From NCBI GenBank assembly GCA_034509425.1, contig JAVTVJ010001824.1, positions 1-64,000 of the forward strand: a DNA stretch of 64,000 bases, written 5' to 3'. The notes below the pieces were generated by a model that worked only from the letters and a program-made list of their open reading frames with translations, searched no databases and was not told the origin of the DNA. Within the stretch, counting starts at the first letter, position 1; every line of letters begins with the position of its first letter. This document shows, piece after piece, positions 49,401 through 53,092 of this stretch. The position numbers and the translations under genes are program-made. The stretch comes from Eopsaltria australis (taxonomy: Eukaryota > Chordata > Aves > Passeriformes > Petroicidae).

Positions 49401-52400
49401 TACACTATCATATATATATATACACTATCATATATATATATATATACTATCATATATATATTGTCATTAATATAATATATCTAATATAATATATCTAATA
49501 TAATAGTGTTTAAGATGGAGTCTGGATACTCACTGACACTGAATCACAGGGCACTGTGCTTTAATAACATTGATGTGATTACTGCTGCAACACAAAGATC
49601 TCTCATGGGGCTCAGCTCTCAGAAAATGTGAAACATCTGTGCCATGATGTATTCATATATCTTTCATTTCTCCCTCATTTGCAGAAAAGCAGAATTACAT
49701 GAAACATCTCTGAGGCCTCCATGGTGAGTGTAACTCCTCTGGCTCCATGAACCTGGTATCACTTTGTTCTCAGAAATACAACTCTGCCTCTGGCAGGTCA
49801 GGAGAGCTGAGAGCAAGACTGAATGAACAGGAAAGGATGCCTGACTAGAAAAGCTGCTCTTCCAGAATCCTGGAAATGCACAGATGAAGAATTTTTAATT
49901 TGTTTACTTTCAGAAAGGAAACTGAGAAATTATGGTGAATGCTGAAAATATTTTGGTTTAATTTTATCTCATTTTTTTGCATCCCCTGTCACCACTCATC
50001 TCAGGAGCTAAAAACAAGAGGCCTTGGCTGATACTTTTTTTAGTGGTAACAATCAGCATGATACGTGATGGGTAAATGACTGTGAAATGAACATTTTAGG
50101 TCACTGGGATAAATTATTTTCTGGAATTGCCTATTCTAGAGCCATCTGCATTAGGAAAAAAAATTAAATAATAAAAGGGGTATGGACATACTGGAGAGAG
50201 TTTAACAAAGGATGATGAAGGGGCTGGAGCTGTCTCCTGTGAGGTGAGACTGAGAGAGCTGGGATTGTTCAGCACAGGGAGCAGAAAGCTCTCACATCTG
50301 CTCTGGAAAGCAGCCTGGCTGAACTCAGAGCAACAACATTCCTTGTGGGAGGGGGATGTTCCTCTGAGTGCCACAGATAAACCAGTAAACAACACCCTGG
50401 GAAGCATCAGGGAAATACCTGTCCATCATCCCAAAGGAATTAGGGAGAGTTCTTTCCAAAAGAGGAGATCAACCCTGCTGAAGAGACTCAGTCAACACAC
50501 AGGTAATGAGCAGAAAACCAGGGTGCAATCAGAAATCTGTGATATGATCAGAAATCGGTGGGATTATCAGAAAACCAGGGTGCAATCAGAAATCTGTGGG
50601 GTAATTTTTATCACAGAAACATGCTGGAGAATTGCACATCTGGAGCGCTGCAGCTGAGAGTTTTCCAGGAGACACAGGCTGCGAGCAGTGGGTGGATGTG
50701 CAGTGCTCTGTGCTAAGGGAGTGGATGGATTGTGAAAAGCAGCCTCTGAGTGACAGCCACAAACAGCTTGGGAGCAGTAAAACTCAAAGACAGACACATA
50801 CTGCAGGTGTCTGCTCCAGAATTTGGTGACTCACATCTCCGATTTTGCTGACAGCACTTTCTGGTGATGTCAAAGAGAGGCTGGGATGATTAAATCACGG
50901 GTAGACATTGCTGAAGAAGTTTGTGTTTGCCTTCAGGAATTTCCTGGCCCATCCAAACCCTGCCTTCATTCTCACCCCTGCAGGAGACAGGATGTGCCAG
51001 TGCTGACACCCTGGTTGGCTCCAATTGTCTGGGAAGGGACGTTCAGCAGGGACATCCTGAATGCTCAATATGTGCAGAAGAACTTGGTCACTGGAGTGGT
51101 CACTTTTGCTGTTGACAAGTATTGGTTTGTTGTTTCTTTCTTGTCAAATAGTTCAAGCTCTCACCTGCTGCAATGCTGCTCATGCAGCACAAGTGGGAAA
51201 CATTCCAAAGGGTGAATATGAGCAGCTGTAGACTGGGAGGAATGTGATGTGTGAGTGTCACCTTCCAAAGTGAGGCTACTGGCTGGGACAGTTTTGAAAA
51301 GGAAAAAAAATATCCTTGGAAGTATAATTAGCATTTTTACCCCTTGAGATAAAAATTCTAGCTCCTGCTATGTTTTTAACAATAAGCTTTCCCTCTATCC
51401 TGCACTAAAAAATAGAAAAATTCTGTGAAGCTGAGATGTTACTGGGTTTCTGTAAGAGTTTGAAGTTAGAATATTAGCTCTAGTAAAATTATTAATCATG
51501 TTGTTACAGCTTTTATGCTCTTGGGGAGGCTCTTTTTTGAGGTTCTGAGTAAAGAGCTATAGTCCCTCTATCTCCACTGCCATCTTGGAGTTACACAGAC
51601 ACTCCAGGTATTTCAAGGCAATCAAAATAATTTAATAATTTTGACCCTCTCCTGTGAAAACAGACTGAGAGTTGAGGTTGTTGAGCCAGGAGAAGACAAA
51701 GCTCCAAGAAAACCTTAGAGCCCCTCCTGTACCTAAAGGGGGCCACAGGAAAGTGGGAGAGGGATTTTTAACAAAGGTGGGTGGTGAGAGAATGAGGGAG
51801 AGTGGCTTTAAACTGAAAGAGGGGAGATTTACATCAGATATTAGGAAGAAATTCCTCCCTGTGAAGGTGGGGAGGCCCTGGCACAGGGTGTCCAGAGAAG
51901 CTGGGGCTGCCCCTGGATCCTTGGAAATGCCCAAGGCCAGGAAATCTGGGCTAGTGGAAGGTATCCCTGCCCATGGCAGGGGTGGGATGGGATGGTCTTT
52001 AAGGTTCTTTCAACCCAAACCATTCCATGATTCTCTGTTGATTCTATTATGCTCTTGGTGAGGTAGATGTTCCACTGCAGAAAGAGTGCCAGGGAGCAGG
52101 GGAAAGGGAAGGATGAGAAGTATTTACATTATGGAATGATACCAGAGAGCAGCACTGGTGGAAGGCACATGTTCTGTGCACAGTGAAAGCTAAAATGTGG
52201 TGTCATGTGCACAGCATGGGGAAGGTTTGAGGGCAGCAGCTCTGGTAAATAAAGAGCACTAATGTTGTAAGAAGGAGCAATGGATAGAAAAAGACAAAGC
52301 AAATGCACTTGCAAAGCTGTCTTTCTTCAGCAGGAGGAGCCTCTCTCCATGCTTTTCCTTTCCATGTCTCTTAGATATGTCCAGTTCATAGAAGGGTTCA

Positions 52401-53092
52401 TGAGATCTGCCAACAAGTACTTCCTTGCTGGGCACCAAGTGAATTTCTACTTGTTCACAGACAATCCTGAGAAGATCCCTCCCCTTCAGATGGCCCCTGA
52501 GAACCTCCTGTTTGTCATCCCTGTCCAGACCCACCCTGGGTGGGAGGACATCGCCACGAGCCGCATGGACATCCTCAGCACACACATCCAGAGGCAGCTC
52601 CAGCACCAGGTGGACTTTCTGTACTGCCTGGACATCGATGTGCAGCTCCTGGCACACATCGGCGTGGAGATCATTGATGCCCTGGTGGCAACCATCAGCT
52701 CCTGGCAGCTCAGCCCACACCACGAGGACAAAGCCCACGAGACACCCCCTGGTGCCATCCCTGAGGGCCAGGGGCACTTCTGTTACACAGCCAGATTCTT
52801 TGGGGGGAGCGTGGCTGAGGTCTACAAGCTGAGCCGAGCCTGGTTTGAGGGGGTGCTGCGGGACAGGGACAATGGCATCGGAGCTCGGTGGGGAGATGGG
52901 AGCCACCTCAACAGGTACCTCCAGCAGCACAAACCCACCCGCCTGCTGTCCCCAGAGTACTGCTGGGACTCAGAGCTCAGCCCCAGCTTCATCCAGGTGA
53001 AGAGGATGTGCCCTGTGCACAGGGACAGCCAGGGGCAAGCTCCTGACACAGAGGATGGGAGGCCTTTCCTCTTCACAGCCCCACTAAACTGA
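46479..53092 (+). CDS. GT6-family glycosyltransferase (ABO/GGTA1-like), atypical
   Basis: Type II Golgi membrane glycosyltransferase of family GT6. Coding exons: 46479–46561, 47974–48042, 49685–49723, 50984–51118 and 52375–53092; all introns are GT–AG and all phase 2. The sum is 1,044 nt, 347 residues, a normal GT6 length. Exon 1 gives a short cytoplasmic tail and a membrane anchor (about 8–25). Exons 2–3 form the stem. Exon 4 is exactly 135 nt, like ABO exon 6, with TPWLAPIVWEGTF. The last exon carries the catalytic domain: metal-binding DID at 195–197, FFGGS at 250–254, SHLNRYL at 285–291, LSPEYCWD at 300–307. Odd: Gly284 stands where the family has its catalytic Glu, and the YERR and GDFYY motifs are altered. 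A CR1 and an LTR sit in its introns. Exons 4–5 are certain; exons 1–3 are splice-based inference. Confidence 0.85.
46850..47325 (+). mobile_element. Solo LTR (LTR family 1), copy C
   Basis: Starts TGATGCA and ends GGCATCA. It shares ordered blocks with copies A and B, such as ttggtcagacaaaacaatcc (with A) and cctgaaggcccttca (with B). It lies in the first coding intron of the glycosyltransferase gene, same orientation. It is diverged from copy B, so the two are unlikely to be the ends of one provirus. Confidence 0.75.
49305..49505. repeat. TA-rich tandem repeat (ATATATACACTATCAT)n
   Basis: Repeats of atatatatatacactatcat-like units of about 16–22 bp, followed by aatataatatatct repeats. It lies in an intron of the glycosyltransferase gene, 180 bp before the small exon at 49685. 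Self-complementary TA runs could extrude hairpins. Confidence 0.9.
50205..50312 (+). mobile_element. CR1 LINE fragment
   Basis: Sense CR1 segment: tgaggtgagactgagagagctgg then gattgttcagcacagggagc. It lies in the intron between the 39-nt and 135-nt exons of the glycosyltransferase gene. Confidence 0.6.
51636..52052 (+). mobile_element. CR1 LINE 3' end in last GT6 intron
   Basis: Sense CR1: cttggagagttgag-type start, tttaaactgaaagaggggag, ctgcccatggcaggggtggg, ttcaacccaaaccattccatga and a decayed ATTCTAT tail. It lies between the last two coding exons of the glycosyltransferase gene. Confidence 0.9.

Follow-up and report, generated by a model that had tools for sequence, protein, structure and literature searches.

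The GT6 gene and its active site

The 64,000-nucleotide stretch of Eopsaltria australis contig JAVTVJ010001824.1 analyzed here (the window) carries on its plus strand, at 46479-53092, a five-exon coding gene of glycosyltransferase family 6 (GT6), the family of the ABO blood-group transferases. It encodes 341 amino acids without a stop or frameshift, and all introns are GT-AG. The catalytic glutamate of the family is absent: codon 52898-52900 (plus strand) is GGG, placing a glycine (Gly278) at the position of ABO Glu303, in the context WGDGSHLN where solved ABO chains read WHDESHLN. A first-pass annotation had pointed to this glycine and to the fully open last exon with its DID, FFGG, SHLN and SPEYCWD motifs, and both observations were borne out. 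Its DID and glycine sites also stand, while its residue numbers (195-197 and Gly284) do not, as they followed from a different exon-1 donor.

Exon 1 (46479-46543) supplies the start codon, a short cytosolic tail and a hydrophobic stretch (MGITKLHGLAVLVTAGITAAVW); its N-terminus and boundary match those of Sylvia, Haemorhous, Cyanistes, Malurus, Nyctibius and Bubo. The alternative donor GTAATT, which would end the exon at 46561 and give 347 amino acids, is not used by the full-length bird proteins compared and was replaced by GTGGGT after 46543. Exons 2 (47974-48042, with AG/GT ends and the frame preserved) and 3 (49685-49723) encode the stem. The catalytic domain begins in exon 4 (50984-51118; TPWLAPIVWEGTF), which lies within the Pfam Glyco_transf_6 match, and its bulk is in exon 5 (52375-53092), which includes the TGA stop; all five exons are on the plus strand. 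Pfam PF03414 (Glyco_transf_6) matches residues 60-323 of the 347-residue form (E = 1.9e-89; 300 bits against a cut-off of 25), and the protein falls within the GT-A fold of ABO and alpha3GT. The short hydrophobic N-terminal stretch, judged by eye, may belong to a type II membrane topology. The C-terminal extension ending in TAPLN is common to the window protein, Sylvia and Cyanistes, and is thus ordinary for songbirds. A tblastn search with exons 4-5 found no second GT6 copy in the window, and Rfam at gathering scores gave no matches.

The remainder of the active site is a mixture of kept and altered residues. The DID triplet (52631-52639, plus strand; residues 189-191), corresponding to the DxD motif at ABO 211-213 that binds metal and nucleotide sugar, is kept, as are FFGG (52796-52807), SPEYCWD (52949-52969) and Asp302. 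Two changes beyond those first noted accompany the missing glutamate, both on the plus strand: arginine at ABO position 268 (Arg243; AGA, 52793-52795) and glycine at ABO His301 (GGA, 52892-52894). A structural study of the human Arg268 enzyme reportedly found the donor site blocked by the arginine with acceptor binding intact. In structures of human ABO, His301 and Asp302 are among the donor-sugar-binding residues (PMC4692239); Glu303 is named as the likely nucleophile (PMC4202792), and Gly268Arg is listed as a missense change that inactivates the enzyme (PMC5278553). ABO YERR was first thought to be replaced by HEDK; it aligns with HETP (residues 224-227), HEDK lying upstream, and birds mostly carry YETR or other variants there.

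Distribution of the changes and orthology

The relatives compared are 144 different proteins from two GT6 lists (the best 120 of 223 and the best 120 of 220), spanning birds, turtles, mammals and others and including ABO-like proteins and GBGT1. At the ABO-303 site 140 of them have Glu, three have no residue, and one, from the petroicid Drymodes brunneopygia (P0013), has Ser. Among the matches listed, Drymodes is the most similar to the window protein by identity (85% over 71% of the protein), and ranks only 13th by score because its record is partial. It is likewise the closest among the matches listed for the neighboring olfactory receptor gene OR6B1 (88%, the next being 84%), where the top-scoring match is a double-length Pogona prediction of 64% identity. 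The lack of Glu is therefore not confined to one genome, and there are signs of constraint between the two species (see below). The absence of Glu recurs in the related bird; the glycine itself does not, and the other listed relatives with data have Glu.

A residue table of 47 passerines, the window included, and 17 other birds reveals that the loss has company. At position 268 the passerines have Ser in 41 cases, Gly in two, Arg in two (the window and Drymodes only) and gaps in two; outside this pair, 57 of the 60 birds with data have Ser and three have Gly. Position 301 is His in 35 passerines, Gly in two (again the window and Drymodes only), another residue in eight and a gap in two, while at position 303 Glu occurs in 43, the window has Gly, Drymodes has Ser and two have gaps. 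All 17 other birds keep Glu303 and His301, with Ser or Gly at 268. Arg268 and Gly301 are thus common to the window and Drymodes and were seen in none of the other birds examined. For both proteins the best sequence matches in the PDB are chains with Arg at 268, presumably because of that residue. These human ABO Gly268Arg chains (PDB 1wt0, 1wt1, 1wt3 and 1xz6), which we take to be the O2 allele, resemble the window protein in carrying Arg268 in an otherwise intact protein, but they keep Glu303, whereas the avian change is found in two species and with further active-site changes.

Other active-site positions often differ among passerines. The motif GDFYY of ABO reads GHFCY in the window, as first noted, but the motif is variable: among passerines with data its Asp is kept in 38 of 44, with His in four and Glu in two, and the position of its first Tyr holds His in 26 of 45 and Tyr in 18, Cys being found in the window only. 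Of 45 passerines with data, 13 have another residue in place of Trp300 and 32 in place of Asp302, this being His in 26 (HHESHLN); His302 in many passerines may signal a shift in the donor used or a relaxation of function in some songbirds. In 15 of 47 passerines Asn or His takes the place of the second Asp of DxD, which recalls the Asn of bacterial GT6 proteins, described in PMC3961637 as metal-independent enzymes; as these are active, such changes need not kill the enzyme. Amid these variable positions, Glu303 otherwise stays constant.

A maximum-likelihood tree built on the catalytic exon unites the window and Drymodes with 100% support within the oscine ABO-like genes, and the 47 passerines with 99% support. 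The ABO-like genes of birds and turtles cluster with two mammalian ABO sequences, and four GBGT1 sequences stand on the other side of a root that was chosen, in a sampling of ABO-like genes and GBGT1 that leaves aside A3GALT2 and GGTA1. The tree and the rate counts below were also run with the exon junction omitted, because partial database proteins continue into intron sequence at that point (WF for VQ). Without the junction, support for the pair remains 100% and its neighbors shift from Callaeas and Mohoua to Prinia, Cisticola and Regulus (46-51% support), its exact placement among the oscines being provisional.

OR6B1 (39477-40433, minus strand) appears to be a conserved neighbor of the avian ABO-like gene. 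The GT6 and OR6B1 proteins come from equal-sized contigs, read as the same contig, in 23 of 29 bird species by hand (23 of 26 by script); the contigs differ in Drymodes, Mohoua, Vidua chalybeata, Hirundo, Motacilla and Bubo. That the two genes are neighbors is also suggested by a turtle prediction (P0063) in which GT6 and olfactory receptor domains are fused. By these comparisons the window gene is a songbird ABO-like orthologue near OR6B1. Its place in the tree and its neighbor do not support the paralogue that had been proposed. It resembles the avian genes annotated as BGAT1/BGAT2 ("histo-blood group ABO system transferase 1/2-like") in sequence, at both termini and in the OR6B1 neighborhood; the others examined that have a residue at 303 keep Glu except in Drymodes, and Arg268 and Gly301 are restricted to Drymodes and the window. 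An earlier survey of 24 birds covered the AK8-qter region, so that a gene copy lying within a cluster of olfactory receptors could escape notice; four of the 24 have listed ABO-like entries (emperor penguin, P0020; killdeer, P0061; common cuckoo, P0012; downy woodpecker, P0052). Among the papers listed by literature searches on birds or GT6, none dealt with the ABO-like gene of songbirds, nor was there any ABO passage in the available portion of the songbird genome paper PMC4377847.

Five long olfactory receptor frames (Pfam 7tm_4) surround the GT6 gene, all on the minus strand: 3772-4761, 27241-28371, 34223-35188, 39477-40433 and 60960-61928. Elsewhere in the window is a direct duplication (about 5661-9667 and 17718-21511; 98-99% identity in six listed blocks, 11.8-12.1 kb apart). 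Between its copies sit a retroelement pol remnant with RNase H and integrase domains (11009-12637, plus strand) and fragments of a gene for a trypsin-like serine protease (13870-15342, minus strand; Pfam Trypsin). A tandem array at 128-411 holds 7.5 copies of a 38-bp unit.

Constraint and evolutionary rate

Constraint was assessed on the proteins of relatives, in place of the ratio of nonsynonymous to synonymous rates (dN/dS). The window and Drymodes proteins differ at 34 of 241 shared sites. Although 158 of the 241 are conserved sites, only eight of the differences fall there and 26 at variable sites; two of the eight are at near-invariant sites, one being the Glu site itself. A neutral simulation started from the window codons, with raised CpG mutability, expects 20.8 conserved-site differences (standard deviation 2.5) and never gave fewer than 12 in 1000 runs. 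The conserved-site share of 0.24 is within the range (0.04-0.40) of 17 other bird pairs, which were hand-chosen and are not all sisters. As 12% of the neutral runs were free of any stop, the open frame is weak evidence alone.

The OR6B1 neighbor served as a rate yardstick. The median GT6/OR6B1 distance ratio is 1.26 for the window and 1.31 for Drymodes, compared with 1.11 (interquartile range 0.93-1.28) for 253 other passerine pairs. These ratios rule out a strong whole-gene acceleration; the whole-gene rate of GT6 is at the upper edge of the passerine range, not a collapse. In GT6 the stem shared by the pair measures 0.196 (0.176 with the junction omitted), long against the 0.109 of OR6B1, which means that much of the change predates their split. 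For each of the two genes the window has a short branch (GT6 0.029, or 0.037 without the junction; OR6B1 0.041) and Drymodes a longer one (GT6 0.167, or 0.143; OR6B1 0.102). Against ten outgroups, GT6 has 2-9 window-unique versus 13-22 Drymodes-unique changes (p<0.05 in 6 of 10), and without the junction 2-7 versus 13-21 (p<0.05 in 8 of 10); OR6B1, against nine outgroups, has 7-12 versus 14-19 (p<0.05 in 1 of 9). Because Drymodes is faster at OR6B1 too, the short window branch is weakened as proof of constraint specific to the window. The avoidance of conserved sites, together with a near-normal rate, argues against simple decay.

A possibly retained transferase without its glutamate

We consider that the gene may encode a Golgi pseudo-transferase, or a crippled enzyme, that is under constraint and retained for a role apart from normal sugar transfer, a reading to which we assign a probability of about one half. 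The predicted type II Golgi protein would retain the GT-A fold and DxD, Arg268 would plug the donor pocket, and the Glu that stabilizes or attacks the donor sugar is gone; sugar transfer would be abolished or nearly so. What remains may be acceptor binding, or the partnering and limiting of other Golgi transferases. The observed parts of this reading are that the gene is intact and orthologous, that Drymodes too lacks Glu, that both species have the Arg and Gly changes and that their differences fall mainly at variable sites. The Glu was probably lost before the split from Drymodes: the common Arg268 and Gly301 make a single shared loss more likely, whereas Gly in one species and Ser in the other permits two independent losses, in which case part of the constraint would predate them.

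GLT6D1, a mammalian gene, lost its DxD motif. The window gene keeps DID and groups with the ABO lineage, a comparison drawn from the description of GLT6D1. The likeness lies elsewhere, in that GLT6D1 (GT6m7) is a putative non-enzymatic, open and constrained GT6 with activity unreported (PMC5164903, PMC6351642). The laboratory Glu303 mutants of human GTA and GTB, and E317Q of alpha3GT, alter the same catalytic position; unlike them, the change in the two birds is natural, is to Gly (or Ser) and is paired with Arg268.

Several points weigh against a retained pseudo-transferase. Both the expression of the gene and the inactivity of its product are presumed. A missing Glu alone is no proof of inactivity, because human enzymes with Cys or Asp in place of Glu303 are reported to be slowed just slightly (PMC9587256). 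The timing of the loss depends on one relative plus parsimony, and Gly versus Ser could be two losses. Constraint was judged from proteins; the control pairs are not known to be active enzymes, and many carry other active-site changes. Both distance ratios approach the upper end of the usual range, the stem common to the pair is long, and the structure model of the window protein is weak (last exon only; predicted local distance difference test score 63).

The activity of those human mutants is also among the grounds for supposing that the gene still encodes an enzyme whose chemistry has changed. DxD and Asp302 remain, and Asp302, the acceptor or water might support a front-face reaction or donor hydrolysis, with Arg268 reading a different donor. 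The constraint resembles that of Glu-bearing lineages, the retaining enzymes LgtC and Extl2 carry Gln and Arg at the Glu position, and the pair keeps an Asp302 that most passerines have replaced. We nevertheless think this rather improbable, as glycine offers no side chain, Arg268 inactivates human ABO, and the donor contact His301 is also lost. Recent decay, in which a null gene has a frame still unbroken, as in human full-length O alleles, would explain why several active-site residues changed together, why the shared GT6 stem is long and why Drymodes evolves fast, and the lack of stops does not decide against it. It appears unlikely given that the differences between the two species shun conserved sites, the window branch is short, and splice sites and frame are intact. 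A simple assembly or sequencing error at the Glu codon, read from one assembly, is very unlikely because Glu is missing from the Drymodes record too, which has Gly301 and Arg268 in common with the window.

A bolder form of the pseudo-transferase reading, possible although we hold it doubtful, is that Australasian robins have a fixed, selected GT6 pseudoenzyme, turned by Arg268 and the loss of Glu into a Golgi glycan-binding or partner protein. If true, this would be a natural enzyme-to-lectin switch within the blood-group family. GT6 genes have been repeatedly gained, inactivated and lost in vertebrates. With an intact lineage that lacks the Glu kept in 140 of the 141 listed relatives with data, the retention of a blood-group transferase without transfer becomes testable.
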